Source: Phycisphaerae bacterium (GTDB lineage Bacteria > Planctomycetota > Phycisphaerae > UBA1845 > Fen-1342). From it: a stretch of 64,000 bases of DNA. Below the pieces are notes generated by a model that worked only from the letters and a program-made list of their open reading frames with translations, ran no database searches and had not been told where the DNA came from. Every line of letters starts with the position of its first letter. The first letter of the stretch is position 1. The stretch lies in assembly GCA_028277645.1 (NCBI GenBank), contig JANQFV010000037.1, positions 1-64,000 on the forward strand, in the 5' to 3' direction. Positions 8,512 to 52,605 of the stretch are shown here, in pieces. A program made the position numbers and the translations under genes.

Positions 8512-9510
8512 ATGGCAACGACCGAAATCGATGTGAAACAGATTGGGCAGCGCGTTCAGGCGGCCAGCGCCCCGTTCCGCCAACTGCTCGACCAGATCCA
8601 GGAAGTCATCGTCGGCCAGGACGAGCTGCTGCACAAAATGCTGGTCGGCCTCCTGTCCAACGGCCACATCCTGATCGAGGGCGTCCCGGGCCTAGCCAAG
8701 ACCACGGCCGTACAGTGCCTCGCCAACGGCATTCATACCGGCTTTCAGCGCCTCCAGTTCACGCCGGACCTGCTGCCCGCGGACCTGATCGGCACGCTGA
8801 TTTACCGCCCGCAGGACGGAGACTTCGTCGTGCAGAAGGGGCCGATCTTCTCGAACATCATTCTCGCCGACGAGATCAACCGCGCGCCGGCAAAGGTCCA
8901 AAGCGCCCTGCTCGAAGCGATGCAGGAACGGCAGATCACCATCGGTAAGGAGACCTTCAAGCTTGACGAGCCGTTCCTTGTGCTCGCGACGCAGAACCCC
9001 ATCGAGCAGGAAGGTACCTATCCCCTGCCCGAAGCGCAGGTCGATCGGTTCATGCTCAAACTCATCGTGACCTACCCCACGCGCGACCAGGAGCGGCAGA
9101 TCATCGACCGCATGGCGACGACCGAGCACGACCGGCACATCGCCCCGGTGATGGAGCCCGGCGCAATCATGGCAGCCCGTCAGGTCGTCGACCAGATCTA
9201 CATCGACGACAAGATCAAAGACTACGTGGTCGAGCTCGTGCTCGCGACGCGCGAGCCGGCCCGCGCCAACGTCCCGGTCGAGGGTCTCATCCAGTACGGC
9301 GCCTCACCGCGTGCGTCGATTTTCCTGATCCTCGGTGCGAAGGCGAACGCCTTCCTCGACGGCCGCGGCTACGTCGTACCGCAGGACGTAAAGGACATCG
9401 CCCGCGACGTCCTGCGCCACCGCGTGATCCTCAGCTACGAAGCCGAAGCGGAAGAGAAAACGCCGGACGACATCGTTCGCACGGTGCTGAGCCACATTCC
9501 TGTACCCTAG
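8512..9510 (+). CDS. MoxR family AAA ATPase
   Basis: EGVPGLAKT Walker A, DEINRAPAKVQSALLEAMQE, ATQNPIEQEGTYPLPEAQ motifs. Confidence 0.95.
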   Translation: MATTEIDVKQIGQRVQAASAPFRQLLDQIQEVIVGQDELLHKMLVGLLSNGHILIEGVPGLAKTTAVQCLANGIHTGFQRLQFTPDLLPADLIGTLIYRPQDGDFVVQKGPIFSNIILADEINRAPAKVQSALLEAMQERQITIGKETFKLDEPFLVLATQNPIEQEGTYPLPEAQVDRFMLKLIVTYPTRDQERQIIDRMATTEHDRHIAPVMEPGAIMAARQVVDQIYIDDKIKDYVVELVLATREPARANVPVEGLIQYGASPRASIFLILGAKANAFLDGRGYVVPQDVKDIARDVLRHRVILSYEAEAEEKTPDDIVRTVLSHIPVP

Positions 9511-9532
9511 CAAACGTCGAAACGCCGAAACC
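9511..9532 (-). repeat. Short tandem array, 8-nt unit (minus strand GTTTCGGC|GTTTCGAC|GTTTG)
   Basis: Read directly; inverted relative to the array at 10009-10046. Confidence 0.75.
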
Positions 9533-9578
9533 AGATCCGCACTTCGGCTGTACTTTCAGGTATTCAGATGGAGCTGCT

Positions 9579-9953
9579 ATGAGCCGAATTCAGGGGGACT
9601 TGAAAGAGCGCACGCTCGCCTTCGGCGAGCGCGTCTTGCGTATGTTGCGAACACTGCCGCAGGAGAATGCTGCATGGATCGTGGCGAAGCAGCTTGGCCG
9701 AAGTGGTACATCCGTCGGAGCCAACGTGTGGGAAGCCGACCATGCCCACAGCGATGCAAAGTTCGCGCAGAAGATCAGTATCGCACGCAAGGAAAGCTCA
9801 GAGACGGAATACTGGCTGACCCTGACGGAACGTACCGGGCTTGCACCCTCCAACGTCGCTACCCCCTTGCTAAAGGAAGCCGGCGAACTGACCAGAATCC
9901 TCGCTGCCATCGTCGTACGAACACAGCAGCACATAGCAGGCACAAGGCGATGA
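9579..9953 (+). CDS. Four-helix-bundle protein (S23/IVS-protein-like, Avd-like fold family)
   Basis: Family signature QLGRSGTSVGANVWEADHAHSDAKFAQKISIARKESSETEYWL. Confidence 0.93.
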   Translation: MSRIQGDLKERTLAFGERVLRMLRTLPQENAAWIVAKQLGRSGTSVGANVWEADHAHSDAKFAQKISIARKESSETEYWLTLTERTGLAPSNVATPLLKEAGELTRILAAIVVRTQQHIAGTRR

Positions 9954-10008
9954 CTATCTGGTACGTGACTGCGCGATACGGAACGTCAGCGTACAGGACG
10001 AAGTCCGA

Positions 10009-10046
10009 GTTTCGGCTTTTCGGCTTTTCGGCTTTTCGGCGTTTGG
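10009..10046 (+). repeat. Short tandem array, exact 8-nt period: GTTTCGGC|TTTTCGGC|TTTTCGGC|TTTTCGGC|GTTTGG
   Basis: Read directly. Confidence 0.95.
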
Positions 10047-10059
10047 AGTTGGCCGCGCC

Positions 10060-10935
10060 ATGATACCGAAGGACCTCCTAAAGAAGGTTCGCCGCATCGA
10101 GATCCGCACTTCGCGTATCGTGAACGAAGTGCTGGCGGGGCACTATCGCTCCACGTTCAAGGGCCTGGGCATGGAGTTCGAGGAGGTTCGCCAGTACCAG
10201 GTCGGCGACGATGTGCGCTCGATCGACTGGAACGTCACCGCCCGCTACGGCGAACCCTATATCAAGACGTTCCGTGAAGAGCGCGAGCTGACCGTGCTGC
10301 TGCTGGTCGACCTCAGCGCCTCGCACGGCTTCGGCACCAACGAACAACTGAAACGCGAGCTCGTCGCGGAGGTCTGCGCGACGCTCGCCTTCTCGGCTAT
10401 CCGTAACAACGACAAGGTCGGCCTCACTTGCTTCACGGACCACGTCGAGAAGGTCGTGCCCGCCGGCAAGGGCACGCAGCACGTGCTCCGCGTGATTCGG
10501 GAGCTGCTCTATCACCAGCCCGCCGGCCGCCGCACGAACATCGCCGCCGCACTGGAGCACCTGAACCGCACCACCAAACGCCGTGCGGTCGTATTCGTCG
10601 TCAGCGATATGCAGGACGATGGCTACGAGGACGCGTTGCGACTGGCCCGACAGAAGCACGACGTGATTCCGATCGTCATCAGCGATCCGCGTGAACACGA
10701 GCTGCCCAACGTCGGCCTGATCGAGCTCATCGACAGCGAGACGGACGAAGTCGTCGTCGTCGACACGGCGAACCGTAGTGTCCGCCAAGCGTACGCCGGT
10801 CGGGCCCGCCAAGCCCTGGAGCAACGCGATCAACTGCTGCGCAGCATGCGAATCGACAGCATCAAGGTCCAGACCGGCGAGTCGTTCGTCGACCCGCTGA
10901 CGAAGTTCTTCCGCGCCAGGGAGAAGCGCTTGTAA
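10060..10935 (+). CDS. DUF58 domain-containing protein
   Basis: GLGMEFEEVRQYQVGDDVRSIDWNVTARYGEPYIKTFREER motif; downstream of MoxR. Confidence 0.95.
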   Translation: MIPKDLLKKVRRIEIRTSRIVNEVLAGHYRSTFKGLGMEFEEVRQYQVGDDVRSIDWNVTARYGEPYIKTFREERELTVLLLVDLSASHGFGTNEQLKRELVAEVCATLAFSAIRNNDKVGLTCFTDHVEKVVPAGKGTQHVLRVIRELLYHQPAGRRTNIAAALEHLNRTTKRRAVVFVVSDMQDDGYEDALRLARQKHDVIPIVISDPREHELPNVGLIELIDSETDEVVVVDTANRSVRQAYAGRARQALEQRDQLLRSMRIDSIKVQTGESFVDPLTKFFRAREKRL

Positions 10936-23312: not shown

Positions 23313-23727
23313 GGCGGAGTGGGCCTGGCGGCCGCCGGCGATTTCGTCGGAGGAAAGTCCGAACTGGACAGGGCACGGTGATGGCTAACAGCCACCGGGC
23401 GCGAGCCCAGGGAAAGTGCCACAGAAAACACACCGCCGACGGAGCGCGTGGGAACGTGGGCAAGTGTGGACGTGATCACGTTCCCACCTTCCCACGTTCC
23501 CACGCCTCCGGGTAAGGGTGAAAAGGTGCGGTAAGAGCGCACCGCGCGGACGGCGACGTCCGCGGCAGGGTAAACCCCACCGCCAGCAAGCCCAAATAGG
23601 AGGCGAGAGCCGGCCCGGCTCGCTATCAGCCTCGGGTAGGGTGCTAGAGCCCGTCGGCAACGGCGGGCCCAGATGAATGGCCGCCGCCTGAAAAGGCACA
23701 GAATTCGGCTTACCGGCCCACTCCGCC
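23313..23727 (+). ncRNA. rnpB: RNase P RNA (bacterial type A-like)
   Basis: P1 GGCGGAGTGGGCC/GGCCCACTCCGCC; GAGGAAAGTCCGAAC; CAGGGTAAACCCC; ACAGAATTCGGCTTAC. Confidence 0.96.
23446..23505. repeat. Palindromic array of 8-nt GTG-initiated units inside rnpB
   Basis: Perfect 15-nt arms gcgtgggaacgtggg/cccacgttcccacgc around centre GTGATCAC. Confidence 0.95.
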
Positions 23728-23789
23728 CTGTCTTCACCCCAGCCGCGCTGCGTACGCAGCGCACGGGATATCCGCTACGATACCCCACC

Positions 23790-30101: not shown

Positions 30102-30130
30102 CTTCTCTGCGCCCTCTGTGCCTCTGTGGT
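30102..30130. repeat. 29-nt dispersed repeat, copy 1
   Basis: cttctctgcgccctctgtgcctctgtggt, identical to 37833-37861. Confidence 0.95.
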
Positions 30131-37832: not shown

Positions 37833-37861
37833 CTTCTCTGCGCCCTCTGTGCCTCTGTGGT
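37833..37861. repeat. 29-nt dispersed repeat, copy 2
   Basis: Identical to 30102-30130. Confidence 0.95.
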
Positions 37862-50660: not shown

Positions 50661-52403
50661 ATGTACCGCTGCACGTTACTCCTCCTCATCATCCTCACCT
50701 TCTCATGTACAACCCTCGCCGCCGACCCGCCCTGGATCGCCCGCAGCAAGCTCGGCATGGTCGCCAGCGACTCCCCCGAGGCTTCGCAGATCGGCGCCGA
50801 CGTCCTCGCCGGCGGCGGAAACGCCTTCGACGCCGCCATCGCGACCTCCTTCGCCCTCGCCGTCGCGCGCCCGCACAGCACCGGCCTCGGCGGTGGCGGC
50901 TTCCTGCTCGCCTACGTTGCCGAGCAGCAAGACTGCACCGCGCTCGACTTCCGCGAGTCCGCGCCAGCGGCAGCCACCAGAGACCGCTACATCAAGCTCC
51001 ACGCCGACCGCGGCGATGGCCCCTCGCCCAGCATCTACGGCGGAAACGCCATCGCCGTCCCGGGCCAGCTCGCCGGGCTTGCCGAAATCCACAAGAAATA
51101 CGGCACCAAGCCCTGGGCCGAGCTGGTCGCGCCGGCGATCAAGCTCTGCCACGACGGCTTCGTTGTCGACAAGTCCTTTCGCGGCGCCTGTAAGGACGCC
51201 CTCGCCGACTACCAGCGCTGGCCGGAGCTTCGGAAGTCGTGCGGTCGACTATACGAAACGCTGCTTAATAACGGCGACCTGCCCGAGATCGGCACGCGCA
51301 TCCGCCGCCCGAATCTCGCCCGCGCTCTGCAACTGATCGTCGAACACGGCGCCGACGCGATGCGCACCGGCCCGCTCGCCGAGGCGGTCGTGAAGGCCGC
51401 GAACAACGCCGGCGGCAAGATGACGCTCGCCGATCTGGCGGACTATCGCGTCAAGCCGCGCTCGACGTTGCGGGCCAGCTTGGCCAGTAACTGCGAGGTC
51501 TTCTCGATGCCGCCGCCCTCCTCCGGCGGCATCTGCCTGATCCAGATGCTGGAACACTACAACCACGTGATGCTGAGTTCCCTCATTCGCGAGTGGTCGC
51601 GTCCCTATCACATGATGACCGAGAGCATGAAGCACGCCTTTGCCGACCGCGCCCGTTGGCTCGGCGATCCGGACTTCGCCGACGTGCCGACGGAACGTCT
51701 GATCAGCCGCGAGCACATCAACACCCAGAAGATCGACTACAACACCACGCACCCGCCCGAGTGGTATGGCGGAACACTGCCGCCGCCGGACGACAGTGGT
51801 ACGTCGCACTTCTGCGTCGCGGACCGCTTCGGCAACGTCGTCTCGCAGACCGAGACGATCAACGGCACCTTCGGCTCGCTGGTCGTCGCCGAGCCGTTCG
51901 GCGTCATCCTCAACAACGAGATGGACGACTTCGCCACGAACCCCGGCCAGCCAAACATGTTCGGCCTGATCCAGGGCGAGGCCAACGCCGTCGCGCCGGG
52001 CAAGCGACCGCTGTCGAGCATGACGCCGACGATCGTCACGCGCGACGGCAAGCCCATCCTCGCGCTGGGCGCCTCCGGCGGCCCGCGCATCATCACGTCG
52101 GTCTACCAGGTACTGATTCGAGCAACGTGGGAACGGCAGGACCTCGCAACCGCGATGCAGGCCTTGCGCCTGCACCACCAGTGGCTGCCGAACGAGATCT
52201 ACTTCGACCGCGCGCCGCAGGAGAAGGTGGAATTCGCCGGCAAGAAACGTACGCTGGTCGAGTACCTGGAGAGCTACGGCCACAAGATCGCCACCAAACG
52301 AAAGACCGGCATAGTCCAGGCCATCCAGATCCAACCCGACGGCACGATGATCGGCGCCAGCGATCCGCGGAAAGGCGGGCGGCCGGCAGCGCCGGCAAAG
52401 TGA
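50661..52403 (+). CDS. ggt: Gamma-glutamyltransferase
   Basis: GGNAFDAAIATSFALAVARPHSTGLGGGGFLL; DSGTSHFCVADRFGNVVSQTETINGTFGS nucleophile region. Confidence 0.95.
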   Translation: MYRCTLLLLIILTFSCTTLAADPPWIARSKLGMVASDSPEASQIGADVLAGGGNAFDAAIATSFALAVARPHSTGLGGGGFLLAYVAEQQDCTALDFRESAPAAATRDRYIKLHADRGDGPSPSIYGGNAIAVPGQLAGLAEIHKKYGTKPWAELVAPAIKLCHDGFVVDKSFRGACKDALADYQRWPELRKSCGRLYETLLNNGDLPEIGTRIRRPNLARALQLIVEHGADAMRTGPLAEAVVKAANNAGGKMTLADLADYRVKPRSTLRASLASNCEVFSMPPPSSGGICLIQMLEHYNHVMLSSLIREWSRPYHMMTESMKHAFADRARWLGDPDFADVPTERLISREHINTQKIDYNTTHPPEWYGGTLPPPDDSGTSHFCVADRFGNVVSQTETINGTFGSLVVAEPFGVILNNEMDDFATNPGQPNMFGLIQGEANAVAPGKRPLSSMTPTIVTRDGKPILALGASGGPRIITSVYQVLIRATWERQDLATAMQALRLHHQWLPNEIYFDRAPQEKVEFAGKKRTLVEYLESYGHKIATKRKTGIVQAIQIQPDGTMIGASDPRKGGRPAAPAK

Positions 52404-52431
52404 CAAAGTGAAAACGTGACAAGGTGACAAG
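52400..52431 (+). repeat. Short tandem array, 8-nt period: GTGACAAA|GTGAAAAC|GTGACAAG|GTGACAAG
   Basis: Read directly; overlaps the ggt stop codon. Confidence 0.95.
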
Positions 52432-52565
52432 GGCAGACGCGGCGAACGTCGGCGGACGGGCGCGGCGTGCGACCGGTAAGACCGGGCCTGCGCGGCCTGA
52501 CGGGGAAGGGTATCAAGATACTCAAGGTTGCGCCCTCTCGTTTTGATACTCTTGGTCCGGCGGAG

Positions 52566-52605
52566 GTGGGGAGGTGAGAATGTGAGAATGTGAGAAGGTG
52601 GGTAT
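52566..52605 (+). repeat. Short tandem array, 8-nt period: GTGGGGAG|GTGAGAAT|GTGAGAAT|GTGAGAAG|GTGGGTAT
   Basis: Read directly. Confidence 0.95.

Follow-up and report, generated by a model that had tools for sequence, protein, structure and literature searches.

The 23S rRNA of Leptospira, Coxiella and other bacteria can carry intervening sequences (IVSs) with an S23p/IVP ORF and an inverted terminal stem. To our knowledge, no function has been assigned to S23/IVP proteins since the discovery of IVSs in the 1990s, and neither arrays as defining, locus-specific termini nor target duplications have been described before. The STRR of heterocystous cyanobacteria, tandem units of 7 nt that have invaded rnpB (Vioque 1997, cited in PMC2858038), are not known to have a protein partner. 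STRR heptamers reportedly occur in helix P12 of cyanobacterial rnpB, with unrelated units in related strains, as described by Vioque in 1997, and we know of no established origin for their hairpins. In the Coxiella IVS, tandem GACAGAT heptamers, whose number varies between strains, precede the S23p ORF and lie in a 28-bp terminal stem that RNase III cuts, an arrangement that the authors did not generalise (PMC4990558). Avd of diversity-generating retroelements is a homologous small basic four-helix-bundle protein (PMC10053308). Heptamer arrays of the unit TAACTGA form intergenic direct repeats, patchily distributed in marine Beggiatoaceae, Cyanobacteria and Bacteroidetes (MacGregor 2015, PMC4679880); these are partly the same phyla that harbor the element described here, and neither a four-helix-bundle link nor a mechanism is reported for them (PMC4679880).

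The locus under study lies in a 64,000-nt stretch of a Phycisphaerae bacterium contig (the window), between a moxR and a DUF58 gene and outside rRNA. It had been proposed from the letters alone that a four-helix-bundle gene is bracketed here by inverted arrays of a single 8-nt unit. The arrays, the ORF and its neighbors were all confirmed (Table 1), with the left array ending at 9531 and not at 9532, one base shorter than first given. The left array reads GTTTCGGC-GTTTCGAC-GTTTG on the minus strand and starts immediately past the moxR stop, and the right array reads GTTTCGGC(TTTTCGGC)x3 GTTTGG on the plus strand, 13 nt upstream of the DUF58 ATG. Both were detected independently by TRF. The termini are complementary and able to form a stem, and the arms pair in a predicted fold; no intact target duplication is visible around this copy. 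The protein family and the inverted terminal stem are common to the window element and the 23S IVSs, from which it differs in that the window copy, like nearly all others, sits in an operon junction and not in rRNA. To quantify the flanks, we scored the best alignment of the upstream flank against the reverse complement of the downstream flank, with a threshold of ≥30. The window copy scores 30, a value reached or exceeded by 0.8% of random positions (n = 3000, drawn from a 458-kb sample of its own genome, none of which attained ≥36), so that the window copy alone is only moderately significant; proof of the array architecture comes from the population of homologous loci.

Table 1 Features of the window that bear on the element and its array hairpins
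Feature	Position	Strand	Details
moxR-type AAA ATPase gene, host, upstream	8512..9510	+	AAA_3 3e-64; stop codon 9508-9510
Left array, left end of the element	9511..9531	-	Unit GTTTCGRC, 8 nt, 2.6 copies
Four-helix-bundle (S23/IVP) gene	9579..9953	+	124 aa, pI 10.1; PF05635 1.8e-19, TIGR02436 1.2e-23
Right array (right element end), opposite in direction to the left array	10009..10046	+	Unit KTTTCGGC, 8 nt, ~4.5 copies
DUF58 gene, host, downstream	10060..10935	+	DUF58 1.3e-85
rnpB (RNase P RNA, class A)	23316-23728	+	RF00010 286 bits; hairpin aligned as P12 insertion
ORF-less hairpin of inverted GTGGGAAC arrays, in rnpB helix P12	23441..23507	.	Inverted score 36

The combination of a PF05635 gene with inverted arrays is real and widespread in bacteria. 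Among 94 PF05635 loci from 41 genomes of the same order, 81% score ≥30, compared with 2.5% of mismatched flank pairs. The genome of the window encodes five PF05635 genes, and three further ones besides the window copy are flanked by inverted 7-8 nt arrays, with the units GGATTGAG, TAAGCTG and GTGGGAAC, one per locus. At loci collected from other phyla with a consensus protein query (n = 79; Desulfobacterota, Bacteroidota, Clostridia, Nitrospirota, Omnitrophota, Patescibacteria and others), the threshold was reached by 76% against a comparison value of 5%, and the period was 7 or 8 in 58/60. Inverted arrays also flank 12 of 15 plasmid loci in Cyanobacteriota, Bacteroidota and Gemmatimonadota. 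The main exceptions among the own-order loci belong to a PF05635 clade with a longer C-terminus (L032-L034, L098-L101, L104-L106), which is without flanking arrays; this clade may have a different role and is possibly domesticated. The frequency comparison proposed in the sequence-only reading thus came out in its favor, inverted arrays being far commoner at PF05635 genes than at random positions. The architecture recurs at dozens of unrelated sites, and most copies retain an open reading frame.

The arrays themselves share a consistent anatomy. The unit is 7 or 8 nt long and specific to each locus, with a median of 4.5 units per array. Arm identity is 0.89 in register, 0.83 at the best shifted position and 0.78 between adjacent units, which indicates that the arms are true inverted copies of each other, including the order of variant units. 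Polarity is fixed relative to the gene, since the AG-containing unit lies in the upstream arm (coding strand) in 123 of 127 decided arms. At orthologous sites both arms drift together in unit, for example through GTGGGAAC, GTGATAAG, GTGACAAG and GTAACAAG. Across 38 groups of non-orthologous sites, the more alike the proteins, the more alike the units (Mantel rho 0.355, p 2e-4), in line with the earlier suggestion that the protein is tied to its arrays. An array is not a fixed terminal repeat, because its sequence differs at every locus; units and ends vary between copies within one genome and between orthologous copies, whereas a DDE insertion sequence or MITE has a fixed terminal inverted repeat. 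Repeat-protein co-variation, together with dispersed intergenic hairpin repeats and a partner gene, may be likened to REPIN/RAYT (TnpA-REP) systems. Those have a Y1 transposase as partner and a single palindrome as repeat, whereas the window element has a PF05635 partner and a 7-8 nt array, and elements of its kind show 5-bp duplications at two plasmid sites. No Y1 (HUH) transposase lies next to the window repeats, where the adjacent partner is PF05635.

The empty-site comparison supports the earlier suggestion that the segment is a discrete insert bounded by the arrays. In relatives (G030, G034, G038 and G035) moxR overlaps DUF58 or is ≤7 nt away, with overlapping genes at L053, L058 and L060 and a 7-bp gap at L044. 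Other relatives have a different occupant: the junction of L041 holds another four-helix-bundle gene with the unit GTCGATT, that of L036 a 163-bp ORF-less inverted array with the same unit as the window copy, and in L071 a third, unrelated four-helix-bundle gene is flanked by a MoxR-like end on one side and DUF58 on the other. One might suppose that the gene is an accessory, functional member of the MoxR-DUF58 operon whose microsatellite flanks arose by slippage, and in favor of this, three genomes of the order have a four-helix-bundle gene at the junction. However, the three proteins are not mutual best matches, one is from a different subfamily and their units differ; most relatives are without the gene there, and the same architecture occurs at unrelated sites. 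We regard this explanation as highly improbable, and a vertically inherited operon gene is rejected by the relatives' junctions.

Filled and empty sites were also found in Nostocales plasmids with backbones 93-97% identical. Six plasmids have an empty site A (AAAAAGTAATTAAC) and three a filled one, at an identity of 97.5%; the filled version reads GTAAT-element-GTAATTAAC, with the 5-bp GTAAT on both sides. The same site has an ORF-less hairpin in Brasilonema and a truncated remnant in Nostoc C052. At site E, the 5-bp TTCTA is duplicated around an element related to that of site A and built of the same TCAGGAG unit. TCAGGAG is the unit that goes with the four-helix-bundle protein of Trichormus or Nostoc, and GGGAACA the one that goes with the protein of Nostoc C052. 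A plasmid with a TCAGGAG element also contains an ORF-less TCAGGAG hairpin that is absent from homologous plasmids, at a junction that is not clean. Empty versions of sites B, C, D and F were seen without a clean target duplication; the duplication length of 5 bp refers to sites A and E. The moxR-DUF58 junction, site A and site B each occur in several states. We interpret sites A and E as probable insertions rather than precise excisions from the plasmid sequences; the direction is not proven, because more distant plasmids have related elements or remnants at site A. Many of the copies in the order of the window are at orthologous sites, which indicates that movement is rare and much inheritance vertical. 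Four-helix-bundle elements were additionally observed between CRISPR genes, twice at cas6-cas4 and once at cas10-cmr3 (L176, L182, L185), with differing units; the cas10-cmr3 junction is empty in PCC 7002 pAQ6.

Arrays without an ORF were found in structured RNA. The hairpin in P12 of the window's rnpB (Table 1) is proposed to be a non-autonomous member of the same kind as the gene-bearing element. Among 30 rnpB loci, own genome included, five relatives have array hairpins in P12, mostly of other units, and most others have a short P12; the units in the window and these relatives are 7 or 8 nt. In the rnpB of G037 (L147), P12 holds a perfect inverted repeat that is long and of a different type (AAAAAGGTGTCAGGAACC...), which makes P12 look like a site where hairpins of various kinds can insert. 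The array hairpins in P12 recall the pattern reported for STRR in cyanobacterial rnpB, and differ from what is known of STRR in being tied to four-helix-bundle elements. In the 458-kb sample, three ORF-less period-8 hairpins were detected, with none in shuffles and none at other periods. ORF-less hairpins of the unit AGTGACAA lie at G000:C19 71118-71206 (L125) and G000:C11 32397-32477 (L140), and this unit family is also found around four-helix-bundle genes of related genomes. In relative G015, locus L091 matches 23S rRNA over its full length (1520 bits); at the classical 23S IVS position it has inverted AAACTAG arrays that enclose a four-helix-bundle ORF. As a true 23S IVS with the same kind of arrays, it establishes the IVS-type kinship of the window element, which had been put forward as a candidate for an undescribed element; the kind is already known as the S23/IVS selfish element of 23S rRNA, here outside rRNA. 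Elsewhere in the window, two solitary period-8 arrays of the same orientation lie ~130 bp apart at 52396-52432 (CAAAGTGA-like, overlapping the end of a gamma-glutamyltranspeptidase-like ORF) and 52562-52600 (GTGAGAAT), with no inverted partner and no four-helix-bundle gene. Identical short tandem repeats, (CCTCTGTG)x2, occur at 30113-30128 and 37844-37859.

We conclude, with a probability of roughly 0.7, that the window feature is one copy of a mobile element composed of a PF05635 four-helix-bundle gene and two inverted terminal arrays of a 7- or 8-nt unit. An RNA-only parasite, in which the arrays fold the transcript into a stem that RNase III cuts, excising the element from rRNA or mRNA while the protein is incidental or decaying, is unlikely yet deserves serious consideration. 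Protein decay has been proposed for Coxiella, and RNase III removes 23S IVSs by cutting in the first heptamer region (PMC4990558); the element of L091 is at an IVS position, hairpins extend P12 of rnpB, and the predicted fold of the window copy pairs its arms. Mismatches between arms are, however, not biased toward G.U-compatible pairs (82, versus 92 of the A.C type), and selection for strand-specific RNA pairing of the arms is rejected on this ground. Most copies keep an open frame, protein and unit co-vary, the element runs antisense to both neighbors at 3 of 13 annotated plasmid loci, and such a parasite leaves spread and target duplications unexplained.

Two further explanations assign movement to an enzyme encoded elsewhere, and we searched the genomes for reverse transcriptase (RVT_1, PF00078) and Y1 transposase. 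Mobilization in trans by a DNA transposase of the DDE or Y1/RAYT type that recognizes hairpin ends, with the element as a MITE-like passenger, would account for 5-bp duplications, inverted ends and ORF-less versions. We find it doubtful, because the terminal sequence differs per locus and the unit co-varies with the element's own protein; moreover, the own genome (94% complete) has only one marginal Y1 match, and four PF05635 genes are present in G008, where neither Y1 nor reverse transcriptase was matched. Still less credible is retro-mobility, in which an Avd-like protein would hand its own RNA to a reverse transcriptase already in the cell, for copying into new sites. The homology of PF05635 to Avd (PMC10053308) and the fixed polarity of the arrays fit this idea, but the own genome has no RVT_1 match. 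Four-helix-bundle genes occur without RVT_1 in at least 12 of the 41 genomes of the order, and no template/variable repeat pair was seen. Neither enzyme qualifies as an obligatory partner, since the own genome shows none or a single marginal match and other genomes carry the element without them.

For the element defined by its gene and paired arrays, a mechanism can be outlined that turns on the protein. No recognized catalytic domain was found in it. The window protein matches PDB 2rld (E 2e-19), and five chains are present in both of its homologues, 2gsc and 2rld; XCC0516 (2gsc) is reported to form a homopentameric toroid (Lin et al. 2006, via PMC4990558). By analogy with these homologues, the basic window protein is probably pentameric. 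It may recognize the tandem unit with about one unit per subunit, an idea drawn from the copy number of the arrays, and the ring could pair both ends as a hairpin or cruciform. Host enzymes would then cut, join and insert the DNA. Inverted arms and repeats may be homogenized jointly, and such homogenization would lead every locus to evolve its own unit. Harm to the host would be limited because insertions fall into the gap that separates one gene's stop codon from the next start codon, or extend the tip of an RNA helix that tolerates them. In a transcribed element, RNase III could cleave the paired arms, as it does in IVSs already described, and so limit damage further.

The window element is thus a mobile IVS-type element outside rRNA, of which rRNA IVSs are special cases, and cyanobacterial STRR hairpins are probably special cases of the same element. 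More tentatively, and at somewhat less than even odds, these copies may represent a cross-phylum transposable class whose sole protein is a non-enzymatic four-helix-bundle ring recognizing evolving, element-specific arrays while host functions insert the DNA; in this view rRNA IVSs would be the autonomous copies and STRR/P12 hairpins the non-autonomous ones. Among transposons, it would be unusual for a terminal recognition sequence to change from locus to locus together with its protein. Within the open-licence papers searched, the unification of array termini and ORF-less hairpins with IVSs appears new. Inverted arrays, ORF-less hairpins, 5-bp duplications and protein-unit co-variation form a shared anatomy that ties S23/IVP proteins to STRR hairpins, and the element joins three puzzles that have been treated apart: rRNA "intervening sequences", lone four-helix-bundle genes and short tandem-repeat hairpins.
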